Shown here in pieces: positions 6,008 to 22,967 of a stretch of 28,179 nucleotides of DNA. Numbering within the stretch: position 1 is the stretch's first letter; each line of letters starts with the position of its first letter. Under the pieces are notes generated by a model. The model was not told the origin of the DNA. It worked only from the letters and a program-made list of their open reading frames with translations, and did no database searches. This DNA comes from an uncultured Flavihumibacter sp. (lineage in GTDB: Bacteria > Bacteroidota > Bacteroidia > Chitinophagales > Chitinophagaceae), in the NCBI GenBank assembly GCA_946482545.1, contig CAMLRX010000059.1, positions 1 to 28,179 of the forward strand, read 5' to 3'. The translations under genes were made by a program, and so were the position numbers.

Positions 6008-6076
6008 ATTTTGGATGTTGAATGTTGAATTTTGAATTAAGACCAATCCAAAATTCAGCATTCAAAATTCAACATT
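6008..6076. repeat. Intra-operon palindromic repeat, copy 1 (atpH/atpA gap)
   Basis: A perfect 17-bp inverted repeat has arms AATGTTGAATTTTGAAT at 6021-6037 and its complement at 6060-6076. A second, nested pair is ATTTTGGAT (6008-6016) with ATCCAAAAT (6046-6054). The right arm abuts the atpH stop codon. Close relatives of this element occur at 13927-14042 and 21823-21899. Confidence 0.85.
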
Positions 6077-13156: not shown

Positions 13157-13189
13157 CTTAACAATTACATAATCCCTACATTTAACATT
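13157..13189. promoter_or_regulatory. Possible Pho-box-like units ahead of the response regulator
   Basis: On the minus strand the sequence has TTA cores at spacings of 13 and 11 bp within AATGTTAA, GGATTATG and TTGTTAAG units. The first unit is identical to units in the array at 20905-20972. The block ends 17 bp before the -7 element at 13207, where an activator would sit. Autoregulation is inferred. Confidence 0.4.
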
Positions 13190-13206: not shown

Positions 13207-13214
13207 TATTTTTG
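13207..13214 (+). promoter_or_regulatory. -7 promoter element of the response regulator
   Basis: TATTTTTG is a full TAnnTTTG match ending 17 bases before the ATG at 13232. No TTTG is present about 20 bp upstream; TTAACATT lies there instead. Confidence 0.65.
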
Positions 13215-13231
13215 TGTAAATATATTGTTAA

Positions 13232-13924
13232 ATGGAACCGAAAGGCAAGAAGATACTGATCGCCGACGACGAGCCCGATATCCTGGAAATACTGGACTAC
13301 AACCTCAGAAAGGAAGGCTATGAAGTGGTGAGGGCCGCCAATGGAGATGAAGCGCTGGAACAGGCCAAAGCCCAGAAACCCGACCTTATTGTGCTGGACA
13401 TTATGATGCCGAAAAGAACCGGACTCGAAGTTTGCGAGATTCTCCGTAACCAGGAAGCCTTCCGCGATACACTGATTATCATGCTCACCGCCCTCAGCGA
13501 CGAGACCTCCCACATAAAAGGACTGGAAAGCGGCGCCGACGACTACGTAAACAAACCCATCAGCCCGAAAGTACTGACCAGCCGCGTAAACGCGCTGTTC
13601 CGCCGGCTCAACAAGAACATCAATACCAAAGAAGAAGGCGGCGTACTGAAAATCGACAACCTCACCATTGACCCGGTAAAGTTCGTGGTCATGGCCGACG
13701 ATCAGGAGATCATCCTCGCCAAAAAAGAATTCGAACTCCTCTACCTGCTCGCCTCCAAACCAGGCCGCGTGTTCCTGCGCAACGAAATCCTCAGCCAGAT
13801 ATGGGGCAATGATGTGATCGTTGGCGACCGCACCATTGATGTGCACGTCAGGAAAGTAAGGCAGAAAATGGGGATGGACTGCATCACGACTGTAAAAGGT
13901 GTAGGCTACAAGTTCGAGTTGTAA
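13232..13924 (+). CDS. OmpR/PhoB-family response regulator
   Basis: This 230-aa protein has a receiver domain (about 6-120) with acidic pocket D12-D13, phosphoacceptor Asp56 in LIVLDIMMP, Thr in MLTAL, and the switch lysine in YVNKP. A winged-helix DNA-binding domain (about 135-230) follows, ending in the family's VRGVGYKF-type pattern (VKGVGYKFEL). It is the cytoplasmic output half of a two-component system with the kinase at 14057. Proteins of this subfamily bind 11-bp direct repeats in tandem. Such repeats occur before the nearby phosphate-transport genes and, more weakly, before this gene. A PhoB role is therefore a good inference, but it is not proven by the protein sequence alone. The ATG at 13232 is chosen because the promoter lies directly ahead of it. 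Confidence 0.95.
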   Translation: MEPKGKKILIADDEPDILEILDYNLRKEGYEVVRAANGDEALEQAKAQKPDLIVLDIMMPKRTGLEVCEILRNQEAFRDTLIIMLTALSDETSHIKGLESGADDYVNKPISPKVLTSRVNALFRRLNKNINTKEEGGVLKIDNLTIDPVKFVVMADDQEIILAKKEFELLYLLASKPGRVFLRNEILSQIWGNDVIVGDRTIDVHVRKVRQKMGMDCITTVKGVGYKFEL

Positions 13925-13926
13925 TC

Positions 13927-14042
13927 ATTTTGAATGTTGGATTTTAAATGATGGATGAAAGAAGGGCATTCCCTATATACTGAATTGTAGCTCATTTGAA
14001 AATTCATCATTCAACATCCAAAATTCAACATCCAAAATTTTC
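13927..14042. repeat. Intra-operon palindromic repeat, copy 2 (regulator/kinase gap)
   Basis: Left half (13927-13961) has TTTTGAATGTTGGATTTTAA units and right half (14003-14042) has the complements CATTCAACATCCAAAATTCA. The halves pair imperfectly around a non-repetitive middle of about 40 bp. It fills the gap between the regulator stop and the kinase start at 14057. Confidence 0.8.
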
Positions 14043-14056
14043 CTACCTTCCAATCC

Positions 14057-15106
14057 ATGTTAGATACCAAAAACCTTTCGCCCCGGCAGCTTTCGGCACT
14101 AACGGCGTTTATGCTATCAGTGCCCATCGCGCTGGGTATTTACTGGCTCCGTCCCGTATGGTGGATCGGCGTATCCGCTTTTTTCCTGGTGTTCGCCGGC
14201 AGCTATGCGCTGGTGGCCATCACGCTTCAGCGGTTTATCTACCGGAAAATAAAACTCATTTATAAATACATCTACCAGACCAAAGCCTCTAAAAAGGAGG
14301 AGATGTACTACAAATACATCATTCCCCAGAAAGGCATTGATGAAGTAAGAATGGACGTGGAGAAATGGGCCGACCAGCGCAAACAGGAGATCGAAAACCT
14401 CAAACAGAACGAGGCTTACAGGAAAGAGTTTCTTCAGAATCTGGCCCATGAATTCAAAACGCCCATCTTCGCGATCCAGGGTTATGTGGATACACTACTG
14501 AACGGCGCCATGGAAGATCCCGATATCAGTAAACGTTTCCTTACCAACGCTTCCAAAAACGTGGACCGCCTCGTGAACCTGATGAACGACCTCGATGAAA
14601 TCTCCAAACTCGAAAGAGGAGAACAGGCCCTGTACAAACAGAACTTCGTGATCCAGGACCTCACAAAAGAAGTGTTCGAATCTCTCTCCATCAAAACCAA
14701 TGAGAAAGGGATCAAATGCAGCATCAAAAAGGGCTGTGAACCACCCCTCACCGTTTTCGCCGATAAAGAGAAGATCAGGCAGGTGCTCATCAACCTCGTG
14801 GAGAACGCCACCAAATACGGCCGACCCGGCGGCACCATCGTGGCCAGCATGTACAATACCGATGGCAAACACGTGTTGATTGAAATATCTGATGACGGAC
14901 TGGGTATCGAAGAAGAACACCTTATCCGCATATTCGAACGTTTTTACCGCACCGATAAAGCGCGCAGCCGCGACAAAGGGGGCACTGGTCTCGGACTCGC
15001 CATCTGCAAACACATTGTAGAAGCCCACGGCCAAACCATTCACGTGAGAAGTAAAATAGATGTGGGCACTACTATTGGCTTTACACTGGACGCGAAGAAA
15101 GATTAA
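14057..15106 (+). CDS. Sensor histidine kinase (PhoR-like)
   Basis: This 349-aa membrane kinase is the partner of the regulator at 13232. Two closely spaced membrane helices (about 12-30 and 36-58) leave almost no periplasmic loop, so it is unlikely to bind a large ligand outside the cell directly. A cytoplasmic helical linker leads to the HisKA domain with phosphorylated His131 in HEFKTP. The ATPase domain has N box Asn250 (NLVENATKYG), G1 box DDGLGI (279-284) and G2 box GGTGLGL (308-314). No PAS domain is seen, although many PhoR proteins have one. The short sensor part resembles kinases that sense through other proteins, which would fit PhoR reading the state of a transporter via a PhoU-like protein (inference). 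Confidence 0.94.
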   Translation: MLDTKNLSPRQLSALTAFMLSVPIALGIYWLRPVWWIGVSAFFLVFAGSYALVAITLQRFIYRKIKLIYKYIYQTKASKKEEMYYKYIIPQKGIDEVRMDVEKWADQRKQEIENLKQNEAYRKEFLQNLAHEFKTPIFAIQGYVDTLLNGAMEDPDISKRFLTNASKNVDRLVNLMNDLDEISKLERGEQALYKQNFVIQDLTKEVFESLSIKTNEKGIKCSIKKGCEPPLTVFADKEKIRQVLINLVENATKYGRPGGTIVASMYNTDGKHVLIEISDDGLGIEEEHLIRIFERFYRTDKARSRDKGGTGLGLAICKHIVEAHGQTIHVRSKIDVGTTIGFTLDAKKD

Positions 15107-15627: not shown

Positions 15628-16527
15628 ATGCGAGGAATATTATTGACGGCAGGCGCCTTATGCCTGCTGGCACTTTCCGTTAGTGCACAAAAACACAGCA
15701 AAGCAGATACGGATAGTATATACATCAACAAGGTCCAGGAAACCAGTGAACCCGATAAAGTACTACATGCCGAGCCGCTCTACATTGATCTGATCCGGGA
15801 CCTCGGCGCAAGAAAAGGAGAAAAAGAATGGAACTTCGGCCTGGGCATTACCGACAACCTGGGATATGATAGTTACGAAGCGCTGGTGGAATACGAATGG
15901 GCCCCTATCAACAGATTGGGGCTGGAAGTAGAACTGCCATTCACCTTTTACTCAAAACTTAACGGAACAACAAATAATCAGAAACCCGCCAACAAATTGG
16001 AAAGCATTAAAACCGCTGTTCAATGGACCTTCCTCGTGTCGCAGCGTGCCAGCACCAGCATGGCCATCGGGTACATCAATGAACTGGTATTGGCAGACCT
16101 GAACAAGCTTGGCAAACAAAGGTCCGTTACGGGTAATGTTTTCAACCCGTTTCTCATCACGGCGAAACGCTGGGGCAACAATTTTCATTCGCTGCTGTAC
16201 ACAGGTCCTGTACTTGAAAAACCATTCTCCGGCGGAAGTTGGCACAGCCGGTACGAAATCAATACCAGCTTCCATTACATGATCCCGGGCACCCGCAACT
16301 TCGTGGGCACCGAGTTCAACAAGGAACTGCATGGCTCCGATTTCGATATGGTGATCAGACCGCAATTACGGGTAGGAATAGCCGATAATTTGCTGATAGG
16401 TATAGTAGCGGGCATCCCGGTAAGAAGGGAGAACCAGCGGATGAGCAGTTTTGTGCGGGTGATCTGGGAGCCGGGGCACAAACACCAGGAAAAAAATATC
16501 GCCCCGAAGAATCGGGGCGATTTCTAA
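15628..16527 (+). CDS. HAEPLYID family outer-membrane protein
   Basis: This 299-aa protein has a signal peptide (1-20, cut after SVSA) and the signature HAEPLYID at 47-54, followed by LIRDLGARKGE, which names this Bacteroidota family. The rest alternates hydrophobic and polar residues with many aromatic turns, as in an outer-membrane beta-barrel of roughly 10-12 strands. The function is not established. I recall members near metal-efflux genes, but no efflux genes are present here. The last codons (IAPKNRGDF) are encoded by the stem of a terminator that serves the convergent gene, so the C-terminal tail is probably not under strong protein-level constraint. Confidence 0.8.
   Translation: MRGILLTAGALCLLALSVSAQKHSKADTDSIYINKVQETSEPDKVLHAEPLYIDLIRDLGARKGEKEWNFGLGITDNLGYDSYEALVEYEWAPINRLGLEVELPFTFYSKLNGTTNNQKPANKLESIKTAVQWTFLVSQRASTSMAIGYINELVLADLNKLGKQRSVTGNVFNPFLITAKRWGNNFHSLLYTGPVLEKPFSGGSWHSRYEINTSFHYMIPGTRNFVGTEFNKELHGSDFDMVIRPQLRVGIADNLLIGIVAGIPVRRENQRMSSFVRVIWEPGHKHQEKNIAPKNRGDF
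16490..16521 (-). terminator. Terminator for the receptor/lipoprotein operon, inside the convergent gene
   Basis: A perfect 10-bp stem (ATCGCCCCGA with TCGGGGCGAT) has a four-base loop. On the minus strand it is followed by A and seven T. It starts 51 bases after the lipoprotein stop. It also overlaps the last codons of the plus-strand gene ending at 16527, where the following T-run is weak. Confidence 0.85.
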
Positions 16528-16572: not shown

Positions 16573-18024
16573 TTAGTTGTTGAATTTTGTCCAGCCTTTG
16601 TGCCAGTTGGCATCTTCACCGGAAGGAGCGATACCGCCGATGAAGTCAACTTTCTTAATGAAAGGACGTGCCTGAATCAACGCATCATCAAAATGAGTGT
16701 TAGATGCGGTTGGGATCACGACTGCAGAGTTACCGAATGGCTGCCAGTCAGGATTTCCATAGTCGAAAGGACGGATATAACGGGCATCATCAACTGTAGC
16801 TAGGATTTTGTTTTTTGTATTGGCGGTGAACCATTCAGTTAATGTGGTCTCATTGTACACACTTCCTGAACCGGATACGAATTCGATTGCTTTTTTATAT
16901 GCGCCTGCAATGATGATACCGCTCAGTTTCAATGTTCCCGCCTGAATGTTCAGGTCCGTATTTCCTTGTGCCGCATTGATCTGGATACCTACGGGCCATC
17001 CGATGAACGAAGAGTTAAAGATGGAGATAGAAGAATTCCTTCTGATCTGTACTGCTGCGCCAAGGTAGTTGGAGTTGCCCTTGTTGTTGGCGGTTGCAGC
17101 AGGACCAAAAGCAGAGATGTTGCTGAATACCGCTCTTGTCTGAGGAGTTACAGCGCCCCCACTGCTGTTGTTATCGCTTTCAAAAGCTTCTGACTTAGAC
17201 ACGTCAGCTACAGAAGAATCACGAACAATCAAACCAAACTGTACGCTGCCTGAGTAGCCGTTATCGGTATCAAAATCATCATCCTGCGTATTGTAAGCGA
17301 TCAGGTATTTACAGTTAACGGTACCACCGAACCATTCGAAGGCATCATCTTTAGCGTAGGTCACCTGTACGTGATCAATTACGGTTTTGCTGCCTACTCC
17401 TGCCATTGTAAGACTGTTCACTTCTTTGTCGGGCTGGTAAGCGTAACCGGCGTATTCAATGCGCACATAACGGAGTACACCTGAACTGTCGTTGTCAACA
17501 GGCGTTGGCGCAACCGCGTCACCGGAACCTGCGCGACCTTCACCTTCAGCATTGTCAACGCCACCTTCTACCTGCAACAGGCCGTTTTTGTTGTCGTAGC
17601 TGGTGTTGATGCTTGCTTTACCCAGCAGAACGATACCGCCCCAGTCGCCGGATTGCGGAGAGGGCGCTGAAGAAGTAAATACGATAGGCTCACTCACTGT
17701 ACCGTCAGCCACCAGCTTACCACCACGGGAAACAATCAGTGTGGCCACATCTGCGCCAGTGTAAGCAGCCTTCACTGTAGCGCCTTTTTCTACGGTAAGC
17801 GTAAACCCGTTGGTGATGTACACTTTACCCCTCAGGATATTCTCATCTCCTTTCTTCAATGTGATGTTGGAAGTGATACGGCCACTCAGTTCTACGGTTT
17901 GACCCGTTCCGTTTCCGCCGCCGTTGTTACCATTTCCGTTGCTGTCTCCGTCAATCTCAATTTTCCTACAAGCAGTAAATGCCAGAACAGTGAAAGCAAC
18001 GAGATAAAGGATGTTCTGTTTCAT
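16573..18024 (-). CDS. Lipoprotein with parallel beta-helix-like repeats, partner of TonB receptor
   Basis: This 483-aa protein has a lipoprotein signal (lipid-carrying Cys19 in AFTAC), then KIEIDGD, which is acidic like the export signals that send Bacteroidota lipoproteins to the cell surface, and a flexible Gly/Asn linker. The body shows repeated short strands such as GFTLTVEKGATVKA, LIVSRGGKLVADGT and EPIVFTSS, the pattern of right-handed beta-helix proteins. It lies 42 bases after the TonB receptor, so it is almost certainly its co-transcribed partner and may capture ligand at the surface in the way SusD does for SusC. It is not a SusD homologue: SusD is helical with TPR-like repeats. 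The ligand is unknown. The divergent Pho-box-like array suggests a phosphorus source. Confidence 0.85.
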   Translation of the reverse strand: MKQNILYLVAFTVLAFTACRKIEIDGDSNGNGNNGGGNGTGQTVELSGRITSNITLKKGDENILRGKVYITNGFTLTVEKGATVKAAYTGADVATLIVSRGGKLVADGTVSEPIVFTSSAPSPQSGDWGGIVLLGKASINTSYDNKNGLLQVEGGVDNAEGEGRAGSGDAVAPTPVDNDSSGVLRYVRIEYAGYAYQPDKEVNSLTMAGVGSKTVIDHVQVTYAKDDAFEWFGGTVNCKYLIAYNTQDDDFDTDNGYSGSVQFGLIVRDSSVADVSKSEAFESDNNSSGGAVTPQTRAVFSNISAFGPAATANNKGNSNYLGAAVQIRRNSSISIFNSSFIGWPVGIQINAAQGNTDLNIQAGTLKLSGIIIAGAYKKAIEFVSGSGSVYNETTLTEWFTANTKNKILATVDDARYIRPFDYGNPDWQPFGNSAVVIPTASNTHFDDALIQARPFIKKVDFIGGIAPSGEDANWHKGWTKFNN

Positions 18025-18066: not shown

Positions 18067-20868
18067 TTATATAGAATAGTTAAACGTGATGCCGAATGTT
18101 GTACCCAGTTTCCTGGTGAAGCGATATTGGTCTTCATTCTTCTGGAAGCTTTCTTTGTTGCCTTTGGCATTCTGGTAGAAGTATTGCCTTTGGTTGAGGA
18201 TATCTGAAACATTCAGTCTGATCTCGGCTTTTTTGTCCAGGAACTTCTTGCCAAACTGGAAATCAAGTAAAGGTCTTGGCGCTTCATAGATGTCTGGAGA
18301 ACCCGCACCTGCGGTGATATCACCCACGAGGTAAATACGCTCACCCACCTGGTTGAACAATACAGTAGCGTTTATACCTTCCTTCTCAAGATCATACATG
18401 AGGCTGAGGTTGAAAAGGTAGGGCGACTGTCCTTGCATGGGCCTGTCGATGTTTAATCCGGCATCTTTTACCCGGCTGTAGATGTATGCGGCATTCGCCT
18501 GGAAAGTGAAGTTTTTCAGTGCGGTGGCAAAATCAAGTTTCTTCCTGAACTCTACTTCAGCACCATATGAAGTGGCTTCTTCCGGGTTTTTGAATTCGAA
18601 CGTGCTCGCTCCGCCGATGCCTTCGTAGAATACCTGTTCAATCGGATTCTGGAAACGCTTGAAGAACACGCCCGCAGTAAACACCTCGCCGGAACGGGGA
18701 TAAAGTTCATAACGGAAATCAGCATTCGTAACTTTAGTTCTTTTCAGACTAGGGCTGCCCTGTACAGAAGCATTCAATTCAAAATCATACAGGTTCAGGA
18801 AAGAAAGTTCGCGGAGCTCGGGACGGATCACAGTTTGTGAACCGCTCAAACGCAGGTTGGAAAGGTTATTCAGTTTCAAGGTAGCGTTCATCCCGGGCAG
18901 GATATCCGTTACCCTTGAATGGGTGTGGCGGGGATCAGATTTTTTCACGCTACCCACCAGCTGATCGTAATCTTCGATCCTGGCGCCCCACACCACACGG
19001 AACATGGGGGTGAACTGGTTATCGAACTGAAGGAACCCGGCGTTAAGAATCGTATTGGCCAGGTACCTGAAATTGCTTCCGCGGATGGCATCGAAGGCAA
19101 ACTGATTGCTGCCAGCGGAACCATCACCAAAGTTTTCAGGGCTGAAAATTTTATCAGCAGGCAACTGGCGCAGGGCGTCATTATCACGTGGAAGATAATT
19201 CGCGAACAGCTTGGCATCATACAGCCTGTCCTTGATCTGGAGCATATAGCCACCTTTTACGGTTTGCTTCAGATCAAAAAGGTCGAAGGAATAACTCAGG
19301 TCACCACCGGCAGTATAAATGTAGTCGTTCAGGTTCTGGAATATACGGCTGCCGCTTTCCTGGGAGAGGGAGTTACCCACCAGCAAACGGTAAGCTTCCT
19401 GTGTTCCCGTGGTGCGGGTGTATTGAAGCCTGCGCTGATCGGGAGAGTACCCATCCAGTATATTAAAGGATCCGTACCATTTCATTTTCAGGGGCGTGGC
19501 CAGCAGGTGTTCGCCGGTAGCCTGAATGGTGTAGAAAGTATTCTGCCGGAAGGTGAACTCTGTACCCCTTACATCATTTTCACGGTTGTAATCCTGTCCT
19601 TCCCTTTGTGTGATGAAATTGGAAGAATTCACGTTTGCAAGCGACTTCAGGGAAATTTTGTGCAGCGGGTTCAACTGTACTGTAAGACTGGCCATTGCAC
19701 CCACGGAAACATCCTGTGTGTAACGGTCATCATCATACTTGTAATTGGGCACGAATTCATTTGAAACGTCATTGAGCGCACTCTGCTGGTTCATCATATC
19801 AATGAACCTGTTGTTCTTATTGTATACCAGTCCGAACATACCGCCTACTTTCTTTCCGAAGAGTACGCTGTTGAACCCGCCGTTCGCCTGGAACGAAGCG
19901 TTGAGCGGAGCGGATGTTTGAACCGGCACCCATGCATTGCGCAATTGTGTTCCTATGGTTGTTCTGTCGGCAATGGAAAGTCCGTCGAACTGAGATTTGG
20001 TTTTATAAGAGGATGGGAGTCCGCGGGCACCGTCATCAATACCAAGCCAATCGAGTTTACCGCCATCCTGTTTGTAAAAATTCTTACCAATGGTTTGGGT
20101 GTTGAAGCCGGTTCCTACCTGTATGTTGAAGAAATTCTGCGAAGGAATATCTTTTGTATTCACCTGAATCAGGCCACCGGCCCATTCTCCGGGGTATTCG
20201 GGAACGAATGCCTTATTGATCACCACGTTATCGATCATGGCGGAAGGGATCAGGTCGAAGGAAAAGGTTTTTCTATCAGGTTCCGTACTGGTTAAAAGGA
20301 TGCCATTCAGCATCGCCTGGTTGTAACGATCGGCAAGACCACGGATAACGAGGAACTTACCTTCCTGGATACTTGCGCCGGGCGTACGTTTCAGGACCTC
20401 ACCAGTGGTACGGTCGGGTGAACGGCGGATGGCTTCAGCAGAAATAACCGAGGCAACAGTATTGGTATTCTTCTGAAAGGCAATCACGGCGGCAGCGGTT
20501 TCCCTGCGAACGGAATTTCTGCCAGCCGTTACGGTCACTGTTTCAAGATTTTTCGAAGTAACAGCCATTACAACATCAGCATAAGTAACTTTATCTGCTT
20601 CCACCAATACATCACTGATGGTATTCTTATCATAACCTACAGCAGAAAACTCAAGCTGGTACTTTTTGTTGGCAGGTAAAGAAAGGGTATACCTTCCTTC
20701 CAGGTCGGTAGTGGCCCCGCCGGCGGCGCCAGTTATTTTAACGGATACACTTGCCAGTGGTTCGTTCTTATCGTTCAGGACCTTCCCTGAAATCTTTCCG
20801 TTCTGTGCCTGTGCAAAAACCGTTGCCAGGAAGAGCAGCGGTAATAGGAGCAGATACTTTTTCCTCAC
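18067..20868 (-). CDS. TonB-dependent receptor with N-terminal CarboxypepD-like domain
   Basis: This is a 933-aa outer-membrane importer. The signal peptide is VRKKYLLLLPLLFLATVFAQ. Residues about 22-95 form a carboxypeptidase-regulatory-like beta-sandwich (GKISGKVLNDKNEPLASVSV). The plug domain follows (about 130-240), with GEVLKRTPG, RGLADRYNQAMLNG and STEPDRKTFSFDLIPS. The rest is a 22-strand-type barrel ending in GITFNYSI. SusC-specific features are absent. The start is GTG 20868: the frame continues to a TTG at 20892, but that TTG overlaps the perfect -7 element at 20890-20897, and GTG 20868 gives a compact signal peptide. Six 11-bp direct repeats lie directly upstream. Its operon partner is the beta-helix lipoprotein. 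The substrate is unknown; phosphate esters or a phosphorus-containing complex are candidates by context only. Confidence 0.9.
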   Translation of the reverse strand: MRKKYLLLLPLLFLATVFAQAQNGKISGKVLNDKNEPLASVSVKITGAAGGATTDLEGRYTLSLPANKKYQLEFSAVGYDKNTISDVLVEADKVTYADVVMAVTSKNLETVTVTAGRNSVRRETAAAVIAFQKNTNTVASVISAEAIRRSPDRTTGEVLKRTPGASIQEGKFLVIRGLADRYNQAMLNGILLTSTEPDRKTFSFDLIPSAMIDNVVINKAFVPEYPGEWAGGLIQVNTKDIPSQNFFNIQVGTGFNTQTIGKNFYKQDGGKLDWLGIDDGARGLPSSYKTKSQFDGLSIADRTTIGTQLRNAWVPVQTSAPLNASFQANGGFNSVLFGKKVGGMFGLVYNKNNRFIDMMNQQSALNDVSNEFVPNYKYDDDRYTQDVSVGAMASLTVQLNPLHKISLKSLANVNSSNFITQREGQDYNRENDVRGTEFTFRQNTFYTIQATGEHLLATPLKMKWYGSFNILDGYSPDQRRLQYTRTTGTQEAYRLLVGNSLSQESGSRIFQNLNDYIYTAGGDLSYSFDLFDLKQTVKGGYMLQIKDRLYDAKLFANYLPRDNDALRQLPADKIFSPENFGDGSAGSNQFAFDAIRGSNFRYLANTILNAGFLQFDNQFTPMFRVVWGARIEDYDQLVGSVKKSDPRHTHSRVTDILPGMNATLKLNNLSNLRLSGSQTVIRPELRELSFLNLYDFELNASVQGSPSLKRTKVTNADFRYELYPRSGEVFTAGVFFKRFQNPIEQVFYEGIGGASTFEFKNPEEATSYGAEVEFRKKLDFATALKNFTFQANAAYIYSRVKDAGLNIDRPMQGQSPYLFNLSLMYDLEKEGINATVLFNQVGERIYLVGDITAGAGSPDIYEAPRPLLDFQFGKKFLDKKAEIRLNVSDILNQRQYFYQNAKGNKESFQKNEDQYRFTRKLGTTFGITFNYSI

Positions 20869-20889: not shown

Positions 20890-20897
20890 CAAAAGTA
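20890..20897 (-). promoter_or_regulatory. -7 promoter element of the TonB receptor operon
   Basis: TACTTTTG on the minus strand is a full TAnnTTTG match, placing transcription start near 20886 and the GTG start about 18 nt later. The -33 position lacks TTTG and is covered by the direct-repeat array, as in activator-dependent promoters. Confidence 0.75.
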
Positions 20898-20904
20898 TCA
20901 GCCC

Positions 20905-20972
20905 AATGTTACCGCCACGTTACCGTAATATTACCTCAATGTTAAGAACAGATATTACCGCAATGTTAAGCG
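20905..20972. promoter_or_regulatory. Array of six 11-bp direct repeats, candidate Pho box
   Basis: Units start at 20905 (AATGTTACCGC), 20916 (CACGTTACCGT), 20927 (AATATTACCTC), 20938 (AATGTTAAGAA), 20951 (GATATTACCGC) and 20962 (AATGTTAAGCG). Spacing is 11 bp throughout, except for one 2-bp insertion after the fourth. On the receptor's strand they read TTAACATT or GGTAAC(A/G)T. The array ends 8 bp from the -7 element, the geometry expected when a PhoB/PhoP-type activator replaces the upstream promoter box. Confidence 0.75.
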
Positions 20973-21048: not shown

Positions 21049-21082
21049 TTTGATGCATTTCTTTCAAAGAACCCTAATTTTG
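21049..21082 (+). promoter_or_regulatory. Promoter of the DUF47-PiT operon
   Basis: TTTG (21049-21052), a 22-nt spacer and TAATTTTG (21075-21082) match the Bacteroidota consensus. Predicted transcription start is near 21086, giving an 87-nt leader. A second, weaker -7 (TAATTTCG, 21147-21154) lies closer to the gene and could be used instead. Confidence 0.6.
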
Positions 21083-21090
21083 GCTTTTCC

Positions 21091-21112
21091 AATGTTAAGG
21101 AATTATTAACTC
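21091..21112 (+). promoter_or_regulatory. 22-bp double site 2, candidate Pho box for DUF47-PiT
   Basis: Units AATGTTAAGGA and ATTATTAACTC have TTAA cores 11 bp apart. The site is 34 bp upstream of the weak -7 element at 21147-21154 and just downstream of the start predicted for the promoter at 21049-21082. It could therefore activate the proximal promoter or repress the distal one. Confidence 0.6.
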
Positions 21113-21172
21113 TCCCATCCGGCAAGGCTTACAGGGTTAGTAATTCTAATTTCGCACCAAATTTTTAGCTAT

Positions 21173-21820
21173 ATGGCCCTGAATTCAATTATGAAGTTCT
21201 TCATGCCGAAAGACAAGGTATTTTACTCTCTCTTTGAACAGGTTGGTGAGAACGTGGAAAAAATGGGAGTGATCCTCAATGATGTAGTATCTGAACCCAA
21301 CTTCGATAAAAGAGCAGCCCTGATCTCCCAGATAGAAGATATGGAACATGTGAACGACGATTTCACCCATAAAATCTTCACTGAACTCGGGCGCAACTTC
21401 ATTACGCCTTTCGACCGGGAAGACATCCACTACCTCGCCTCCGCACTGGATGACATCGCCGACTATATTTATTCTTCCGCAAAAAAGATCAACTTCTATA
21501 AAGTTAATCCCAACGACCAGGGCATCCAGAAAATGGCCGACCTCATCGAGCAGGGTGCCAAACAAATTCACCTCGCCGTGCGGGAGCTGCGCAACATGAA
21601 GAACATGCGCCAGATCACCGACGCACTCGTGAAAGTGAACAGCATCGAGAACCAGGCCGATGATATCTTCGACCTCAGCATCGACCGCCTCTTCGAAATG
21701 GAACCCGACGCCAAAGAAGTGATCAAGAAAAGAGAGATTTACCAGGCAATGGAAACCGTGACCGATAAATGCGAAGACGCCGCAAACGTGATCGAATCCA
21801 TTATTATTAAATACGCGTAG
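21173..21820 (+). CDS. DUF47/PhoU-like protein, PiT accessory
   Basis: This 215-aa all-helical cytoplasmic protein belongs to the DUF47 (TIGR00153) family, distant from PhoU, whose genes are usually paired with PiT phosphate transporters. The recognisable parts are MKFFMPKDKVFYSLFEQ at the start, the HKIFTELGRNFITPFDREDIHYLASALDDIADYI block (about residues 60-95), and the closing VTDKCEDAANVIESIIIKYA. The middle block contains the acidic and His residues thought to bind metal in PhoU-like proteins. It is the first gene of an operon with the PiT transporter, 85 bases upstream of it. It probably tunes the transporter or reports its state, perhaps to the PhoR-like kinase (inference). Two candidate Pho boxes lie upstream. 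Confidence 0.93.
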   Translation: MALNSIMKFFMPKDKVFYSLFEQVGENVEKMGVILNDVVSEPNFDKRAALISQIEDMEHVNDDFTHKIFTELGRNFITPFDREDIHYLASALDDIADYIYSSAKKINFYKVNPNDQGIQKMADLIEQGAKQIHLAVRELRNMKNMRQITDALVKVNSIENQADDIFDLSIDRLFEMEPDAKEVIKKREIYQAMETVTDKCEDAANVIESIIIKYA

Positions 21821-21822
21821 GA

Positions 21823-21899
21823 CATTTTGAATGTTGAATTTTGAATGTTGGATGAATAACCGCTTCTGATTCAAAATCCAACATCCAGAATCCAAAATA
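21823..21899. repeat. Intra-operon palindromic repeat, copy 3 (DUF47/PiT gap)
   Basis: Left half 21824-21853 (units TTTTGAATGTTGAATTTTGA) and right half 21870-21899 (complementary units ATTCAAAATCCAACATCC) pair imperfectly around a 16-bp middle. It fills almost the whole gap between the DUF47 stop and the PiT start at 21906. Confidence 0.82.
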
Positions 21900-21905
21900 C
21901 TATTT

Positions 21906-22967
21906 ATGCTCTCCTTCCTCATCATTATCATCATCCTGGCCGTGATCTTCGACCTCATCAACGGGTTTCACGACGCAGCCAACTCCATAGCCACCATCGT
22001 TTCCACGAAAGTACTCACGCCTTTCCAGGCCGTGGTTTGGGCGGCCTTCTTCAACGTGGTGGCCTACTTTATCTTCGACCTGAACGTGGCCGATACCGTG
22101 GCGAAAACCGTGAAGAACAGCAGCATCAACCTGGAAGTGATCTTCGCCGGACTCATCGCGGCCATCAGTTGGAACCTCCTTACCTGGTGGTTCGGCATTC
22201 CCTCCAGTTCCTCGCATACGCTTATTGGCGGGTTCGCAGGTGCCGCCATCGCACACGCCGGTAGTTTCACCGTGGTGGCGCAGGATAAAATAATACAAAT
22301 CTTCGCGTTCATTTTCATCGCCCCTTTAGTGGGGATGATCATGGCTTACATTATTACCATCATTATCGTGAACATCTGCCGGAAAGCCAATCCCTACCGG
22401 GCCGATAAATGGTTCAAGCGATTACAGCTCGTATCTTCGGCGTTGTTCAGTATTGGTCACGGTGGTAACGATTCCCAGAAGGTAATGGGTATTATTTCTG
22501 CCGCCCTGCTCGTGTACGCAGCACAGGTAACGGCAGCAGGAGGTGAAATCCCACACTGGGCGCTGGTAGAACAAACCGTGGACGCCGCTACCGGGAAAGC
22601 CAAAATCGCCCATATTCCCGCCTGGGTACCCATTGTATGTTACACGGCCATAGGTCTGGGTACGATGATGGGTGGCTGGAAGATCGTTAAAACCATGGGA
22701 ACCCGTATCACCAAAGTAACGCCACTGGAAGGGGTAAGCGCTGAAACAGCAGGTGCATTCACCCTGTTCATCACGGAAAAACTCGGTATTCCCGTGAGTA
22801 CAACGCATACCATTACCGGTTCTATCATCGGGGTAGGACTTACCAAAAGGGTATCGGCCGTACGCTGGGGGGTCACCATCAACCTGCTCTGGGCCTGGAT
22901 ACTTACCATACCGGTAAGCGCCCTGCTCGCAGCCCTGGTGTACTATATTGTAACACTCTTTAAATAA
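21906..22967 (+). CDS. PiT family inorganic phosphate transporter
   Basis: This 353-aa inner-membrane permease imports phosphate, usually as a metal-phosphate complex together with a proton or cation. About ten hydrophobic helices are visible. The two inverted PiT signatures are present: GFHDAANSIATIVSTKVL near residue 20 and GHGGNDSQKVMGII near residue 182. The paired substrate-site segments WWFGIPSSSSHTLIGG and LGIPVSTTHTITGSIIG are also intact. It is preceded by the DUF47 gene and followed by a strong terminator, so the operon is DUF47-PiT only. No high-affinity pstSCAB genes are in the window. A PiT under a Pho-box-like site would be a simple Pho-regulated importer. Confidence 0.96.
   Translation: MLSFLIIIIILAVIFDLINGFHDAANSIATIVSTKVLTPFQAVVWAAFFNVVAYFIFDLNVADTVAKTVKNSSINLEVIFAGLIAAISWNLLTWWFGIPSSSSHTLIGGFAGAAIAHAGSFTVVAQDKIIQIFAFIFIAPLVGMIMAYIITIIIVNICRKANPYRADKWFKRLQLVSSALFSIGHGGNDSQKVMGIISAALLVYAAQVTAAGGEIPHWALVEQTVDAATGKAKIAHIPAWVPIVCYTAIGLGTMMGGWKIVKTMGTRITKVTPLEGVSAETAGAFTLFITEKLGIPVSTTHTITGSIIGVGLTKRVSAVRWGVTINLLWAWILTIPVSALLAALVYYIVTLFK

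Follow-up and report, generated by a model that had tools for sequence, protein, structure and literature searches.

What does the array of six short direct repeats beside the promoter of a TonB-dependent receptor gene do, and which regulator would recognize it? The window (the whole stretch of DNA that was analyzed, 28,179 nucleotides in length) contains the following features at this locus.

16573..18024, minus strand: lipoprotein-like receptor partner, right-handed beta-helix fold (homologues carry the precomputed Pfam label PF28492)
18067..20868, minus strand: TonB-dependent receptor (CarboxypepD_reg, Plug and beta-barrel; domain search)
20890..20897, minus strand: -7 element TACTTTTG of the receptor gene; its TTTG anchors the conserved register
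20903..20913, minus strand: candidate Pho-box unit 1 (GGTAACATTGG), promoter-proximal, with its TAA starting 18 bp before the TTTG
20914..20924, minus strand: candidate Pho-box unit 2 (CGGTAACGTGG register; sequence and matrix)
20925..20935, minus strand: candidate Pho-box unit 3 (sequence and matrix)
20936..20946, minus strand: candidate Pho-box unit 4, the last in the common register (sequence and matrix)
20949..20959, minus strand: candidate Pho-box unit 5, beyond a 13-bp step (sequence)
20960..20970, minus strand: candidate Pho-box unit 6 (sequence and matrix)

The receptor likely starts at the GTG at 20868, by analogy with its orthologues. PF28492 is a newer Pfam label, and the beta-helix partner has thousands of homologues. 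Judged from sequence, the six-repeat array is very probably the docking site of a phosphate-shortage regulator, because the same repeats precede phosphate-uptake and phosphatase genes in relatives. We consider it highly likely that the array is a PhoB-type Pho box which replaces the -33 box, is bound by the regulator encoded at 13232 and activates the receptor and the lipoprotein at low phosphate.

An earlier, sequence-only reading of this DNA had placed six TTA cores next to a perfect -7 element, TACTTTTG. On the plus strand, the cores are indeed found at 20909, 20920, 20931, 20942, 20955, and 20966, and 8 bp separate the TACTTTTG box from the ATGTTA of the first unit. The period of 11 bp claimed for the array holds for four of the core-to-core steps (11, 11, 11, 13, and 11 bp) but not for the one of 13 bp, because of which the array is not strictly periodic and the shared register comprises the four promoter-proximal units only; this break in register is counted against the Pho-box reading. 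Bacteroidota promoters have a -33/-7 consensus, and, as had been claimed, the window has no TTG at the place expected for the -33 site of the receptor promoter. With a unit matrix built from 75 other receptor loci, the best three-unit score in the window was 24.4, a value reached by 0 of 300 block-wise dinucleotide shuffles, the top of which scored 18.9. The array shares its intergenic region with the second-best two-unit site of the window, which scores 16.0 and begins on the minus strand at 21110. Tandem Repeats Finder did not report the array even at its lowest threshold, and the units are therefore too diverged for a plain repeat finder. A/T-rich heptad repeats of the ATTCAACATTNNAAA or TTGAATG type, which are related to one another, occupy several intergenic gaps of the window, at 6045-6076, 14009-14039, 21824-21854, and 21872-21898.

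The array is conserved among related receptor loci. An alignment query retrieved 80 of them, 75 of which include the 5' end of the gene (L027, L028, L037, L042, and L067 were left out, their 5' ends being missing). The consensus unit, read toward the receptor, is GGTAACATTnC with an 11-bp period and is present in all 76 receptor upstreams, i.e., the 75 related loci and the window; the unit given earlier, AATGTTAM, is the same motif on the complementary strand and is refined by this consensus. A three-unit score of at least 16 was reached in 76 of 76 upstreams, a count that is partly circular because the matrix derives from these same sequences. Tandem direct repeats with an 11-bp period, as expected of a Pho box, were thus found, with one 13-bp step in the window, whereas wrong-period controls over the same 1.47 Mb yielded 2 places at period 10 and 4 at period 12 with scores of at least 16. 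When the 75 upstreams and the window were aligned on the TTTG, TAACATT appeared at -18, -29, -40, and -51 and more weakly at -62 and -73, in a profile that is blurred because 28 of the 76 TTTG anchors are ambiguous. The distance from the last unit to the TTTG of the -7 element is 18 bp in 57 of the 71 receptor upstreams measured, the other 5 of the 76 having no TTTG in the measured stretch.

Three further features lie about the gene at 13232, which had been named as the source of the regulator.

13159..13189, plus strand: candidate Pho box of phoB, weak (two-unit score of 9.3), with core spacings of 11 and 13 bp
13232..13924, plus strand: PhoB-like response regulator, the predicted ligand of the array (domain and family models)
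14057..15106, plus strand: PhoR/PnpS-like histidine kinase (domain and family models)

The DNA-binding domain of the regulator aligns with the PhoB effector domains of PDB entries 3t72, 1qqi, and 1gxp (E values of about 1.5e-15), and its recognition helix is of the PhoB type, keeping DRTxDVHxRxxR in the alignment with Escherichia coli PhoB; we take the DNA-touching residues to lie within this helix. The protein scores below the NCBIfam PhoB equivalog cut-offs (230.2 versus 296.2 for TIGR02154 and 217.3 versus 270 for NF053854), and these missed cut-offs are counted against the Pho-box reading. TIGR02154 is nevertheless its best-scoring family, and the protein is therefore called no more than PhoB-like. 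A perfect TATTTTTG is located at 13207-13214, downstream of the candidate phoB box, and the 13-bp step is common to this box and the receptor array. The weak score of the box (9.3) also counts against the reading. Among 20 phoB upstreams, many have two-unit boxes in either orientation, such as TTAACAATTTGATAATA in several, with modest scores (median of 9.8; raw and uncontrolled). A HAEPLYID-family protein (NF041634, 415.7 bits) at 15628-16527 adjoins phoBR.

These elements can be combined into a mechanism. Regulators of the PhoB type occupy 11-bp units arranged head to tail (accessible part of PMC4415409). At low phosphate, the PhoB-like regulator, whose gene lies 7 kb away, would load in phosphorylated form as tandem dimers along the units, one unit per helical turn, and the promoter-proximal unit, 18 bp before the TTTG, would occupy the -33 contact site of the sigma factor; by taking the place of that contact, the regulator would turn on the receptor and the beta-helix lipoprotein. 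No room is left for a -33 contact, since the last unit ends about 10 bp before the TTTG, and activation by substitution is therefore the natural reading. The regulator at 13232 is the presumed binder, and the need for phosphorylation, activation as the effect, and the cargo of the receptor are what we infer in addition.

Other genes were next scanned with the matrix, whose training had used receptor promoters alone. The pstS set comprised the best 20 loci by protein score among the PstS matches listed in 117 genomes of the family, those shorter than 345 amino acids having been dropped; one of the 20 sits on a 784-base fragment. An array scoring at least 14 precedes the first gene of the operon or pstS itself in 16 of the 20 loci, and 14 of the 20 exceed the maximum of 400 composition shuffles (16.6). 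The fixed position in place of the upstream promoter box recurs here, with 18 bp between array and TTTG in 8 of 16 loci and 29 bp (18 + 11) in 4. In the two cases tested, Pfam recognized no domain in the gene preceding pstS. PhoX-family genes carry the array in 4 of 10 cases in the family set, two of them with weak PhoX scores, and in 4 of 28 phylum loci at a score of at least 14; the remaining 6 of 10 and 24 of 28, which fall below 14, count against the reading. PhoX is a poor marker, being present in 8 of 98 family genomes. In six of nine flavobacterial-type PhoX upstreams displayed, TTAAYATT occurs twice at 22 bp (two turns). These pairs (L173, L175, L176, L177, L304, and L305) lie about 110 bp before the PhoX start codon, a looser box farther from the promoter. 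The same operator is thus common to unlinked phosphate-starvation genes, pst foremost, and the earlier identification of a Bacteroidota Pho box gains support. The enrichment check that had been proposed with it was run, and the 11-bp TAACATT repeat was found at pstS, PhoX, and, as two units in 30 of 39 loci, DUF47-PiT; because of these arrays, the objection that phosphate genes might show no enrichment fails.

A wider scan gave a similar range of genes. With the receptor upstreams masked, 62 places scored at least 16, against a mean of 2.9 in 10 shuffles. By sequence pattern, the downstream genes were 11 Porin_O_P-like, 9 PlcP-like, 4 dnaB, 3 PAP2, 3 TonB-dependent receptors, 2 DUF47, 2 phosphodiesterases, 2 unknown genes of an MKWV type, and 8 others; 18 places have no downstream ORF of at least 80 amino acids, and these 18 and the 8 others are counted against the Pho-box reading. 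One place is inside an ORF of more than 200 amino acids. Pfam searches confirmed one example each of Porin_O_P, a phosphoesterase (Metallophos/Metallophos_2), and PAP2. Arrays before a glycosyltransferase (L052), a metalloenzyme (L049), and phoB (L032) are outside the 62 because their scores, 15.95 to 15.99, are under 16; Pfam assigned Glyco_trans_1_3 and Metalloenzyme to targets just under the cut. Masked shuffles replaced a reversed-sequence control, in which the 61 places at scores of at least 16 nearly equaled the 64 real nonreceptor places; the cause is that TAACAAT is the same when read backwards (46 of the 61 in receptor upstreams, 14 within 60 bp of another real match, and 1 elsewhere). 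Strong arrays (TAAATGTGNATAGTAACAATTTGGTAAC...) with no downstream ORF of at least 80 amino acids on the minus strand occur in L022, L024, L037, L041, L044, and L049 and perhaps precede a small gene or RNA.

A strict, unbiased three-unit pattern matched 83 times in 56 of the 117 family genomes, against 12 control matches. The 67 merged places include 57 with a downstream ORF and 10 without, 2 of the latter being inside ORFs. The 57 precede 37 TonB receptors (23 of the receptor type described here, 11 of an OMP_b-brl_4 type, and 3 others), 7 membrane-protein/pstS operons, 7 dnaB genes, and 6 singles. The second family of TonB receptors (CarboxypepD_reg and OMP_b-brl_4 in the one tested) repeatedly follows the strict array, as in L210, L213, L214, L218, L223, L225, L231, L240, L241, L255, and L256. 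In the phylum set, the pattern yielded 59 matches, against 12 control matches, in only 46 of 296 genomes, a presence that counts against the reading. Among the 28 new phylum loci, 25 were examined (L330 to L332 were left out, their genomes being already in the family set), and 21 of the 25 have a downstream ORF. Pfam searches of 10 gave 3 Porin_O_P, 2 TonB-dependent receptors, 1 Glyco_tran_28_C, 1 metallophosphoesterase, 1 ABC permease, and 2 without a match. Some phylum matches, e.g., one at an Asp-tRNA ligase-like ORF, look like chance.

The arrays might instead be bound by a different member of the OmpR family (one that acts in redox control like ArcA, for instance), with the phosphate genes being only part of its targets: 11-bp direct-repeat sites are common to this family, dnaB and similar targets fall outside the classical phosphate genes, and, in the accessible part of the report on Riemerella anatipestifer, the PhoP motif closely resembles the E. 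coli ArcA motif and the 583 peaks are not mainly at phosphate genes (PMC9603813). However, phosphate functions dominate the targets found here, the neighboring gene encodes a PhoB-type regulator with a PhoB-like recognition helix, and the Riemerella regulator itself is termed a phosphate regulator by its authors and rises in expression in phosphate starvation (PMC9603813), all of which makes this alternative improbable. That the array is a promoter-strengthening or nucleoid feature, built of phased A+T-rich tracts and served by no dedicated regulator, would agree with its T/A-rich, helically phased units adjoining a promoter, yet we regard this as extremely unlikely: the letters TAACATT are conserved and not the A+T content alone, periods of 10 or 12 yield almost nothing, block-wise dinucleotide shuffles do not produce the array, and the array selects phosphate genes. 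The probability is equally negligible that the array, which sits in an intergenic region shared with the divergent DUF47-PiT operon, serves that operon and not the receptor, since the units are directed toward the receptor and adjoin its -7 box, a separate conserved box precedes DUF47-PiT, and the receptor and DUF47 are nonadjacent in many loci, where each still has its own box.

The divergent operon has the following features.

21091..21109, minus strand: candidate reversed two-unit Pho box before DUF47-PiT (matrix and conservation)
21147..21154, plus strand: likely -7 element TAATTTCG of DUF47-PiT (alignment of 39 upstreams)
21173..21820, plus strand: DUF47 (PhoU_div) protein (domain search)
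21906..22967, plus strand: PiT-family phosphate transporter (PHO4; domain search)

The reversed box scores at least 12 in 30 of 39 loci (38 and the window), compared with 1 of 39 on the other strand and 0 of 195 shuffles. The distance from the end of the box to the TTT[GC] of DUF47-PiT is 39 bp in 13 loci and 50 bp in 5, i.e., one of the two in 18 of 39. An alternative -7 element, TAATTTTG at 21075, which would have the box immediately downstream of it, was dropped after the alignment of the 39 upstreams had placed the likely one at 21147. In Sinorhizobium, PhoB represses a DUF47-pit operon, and the reversed upstream box may activate or repress DUF47-PiT in the present case. A phosphate transporter operon on the other side had been noted earlier, and DUF47-PiT is indeed there, but because it has its own reversed box the six-unit array is assigned to the receptor instead.

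A phosphate-induced pair of Flavobacterium johnsoniae resembles the receptor and beta-helix lipoprotein that are encoded beside phoB-phoR. In the phosphate-depletion table, the FC column gives 8.02 for Fjoh_0545 (a TonB-dependent receptor) and 9.91 for Fjoh_0546 (a pectin-lyase-fold lipoprotein), and the two genes adjoin phoBR (accessible part of PMC8115612). The order compared, a TonB-dependent receptor with pf07715, pf13715, and pf14905 followed by a pectin-lyase-fold lipoprotein and adjoining phoBR, was found. According to the same source, phosphate depletion further raises phoB, PhoX, a pf04101 glycosyltransferase, PlcP (pf12850), and a pf01676 phosphatase, along with Fjoh_3841, a pf13620 TonB-dependent receptor (PMC8115612) that may correspond to the targets of the OMP_b-brl_4 type. 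F. johnsoniae OprP, however, is not phosphate induced in that table (FC of -1.3; PMC8115612), which, set against porins as frequent targets here, is counted against the Pho-box reading. In soils and waters, Bacteroidota play a major part in moving organic phosphorus. The literature searched covers their phosphate regulon through expression data and a single DAP-seq motif and gives no operator grammar.

The repeats of Bacillus PhoP have a TTAACA core at about 11 bp, like the present unit; they belong to Firmicute promoters and are usually described as paired hexamers. The E. coli Pho box is similar to the present array in its 11-nucleotide head-to-tail direct repeats, its PhoB-type regulator, and its position just upstream of the downstream promoter box (accessible parts of PMC4415409 and PMC1906773), whereas GGTAACATTnC here takes the place of the CTGT-type unit, commonly with four to six units and at a Bacteroidota TAnnTTTG promoter. 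The similarity to the cyanobacterial SphR box that had been pointed out holds: that box consists of three or more 8-bp units in tandem, joined by 3-bp linkers (CTTAACCT); its core is nearly identical to the present one and its period is likewise 11 bp, in another phylum and at another type of promoter, with no fixed TTTG register reported in the accessible text (PMC1906773). Within the phylum, the most conserved DAP-seq letters of R. anatipestifer PhoP are TTTAACA, and a TonB receptor promoter was bound in a shift assay, as was the replication gene dnaG (PMC9603813). In contrast, the accessible part of that report frames the targets as virulence and aerotolerance and describes no 11-bp arrays, -7 register, Pho box, pst, or dnaB (PMC9603813). 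PhoB of Bacteroides fragilis binds the pst promoter in a shift assay, in a report whose accessible part gives neither consensus nor motif (PMC3547664). The TAACTGA repeats of some Bacteroidetes were set aside as heptamer direct repeats of a different sequence (accessible part of PMC4679880).

Pho boxes are an old kind, and one regulator motif of this phylum (TTTAACA) is already in print. The suggestion that the array could define a Pho-box consensus for the phylum stands insofar as no such 11-bp arrays were found in the literature searched for this phylum, but it was preceded by the Riemerella motif (accessible part of PMC9603813). Besides that motif, no Bacteroidota Pho-box consensus was found in the literature searched, which covered few subscription journals, and neither were the operator grammar, its use across Chitinophagaceae phosphate genes, or the dnaB and PiT operators. 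From the unit, the period, and the fixed -7 register together, the Chitinophagaceae regulon can be predicted by sequence, and isolated examples from other parts of the phylum suggest that the operator is used more widely.

The arrays before dnaB differ in placement. In a set of 30 dnaB loci selected by protein score from 113 genomes, the N terminus was found in 26 (the other 4 were dropped), and arrays scoring at least 12 are present in 16 of these 26 relatives versus 6 of 520 shuffles. They consist of three to four TAACATT units past a TATATTCG-like box, and in 14 of the 16 loci a TAnnTT[CT]G box starts 21 to 33 bp, mostly 23 to 25 bp, ahead of the point where the array begins; this placement was also seen in four named loci. 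The position is repressor-like because the array lies about where transcription would start. We tentatively propose, at somewhat less than an even chance, an operator of opposite sign: arrays at the -7 element would activate scavenging genes, and past the -7-like box of dnaB the phosphate regulator would directly repress the helicase, whereby phosphate shortage would brake DNA replication through transcription. The binding of the dnaG promoter by Riemerella PhoP concerns a second replication gene, and dnaG fell in the phoP deletion, the sign opposite to repression (accessible part of PMC9603813). A search of the literature, with few subscription journals covered, for dnaB together with phosphate starvation, Pho box, and replication found no paper. 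If the dnaB arrays work as placed, they would provide a directly testable tie between phosphate supply and the replication machinery. The dnaB loci concerned are L224, L235, L239, L250, L251, L259, and L260; L002, L003, L013, and L030; and L274-L303.
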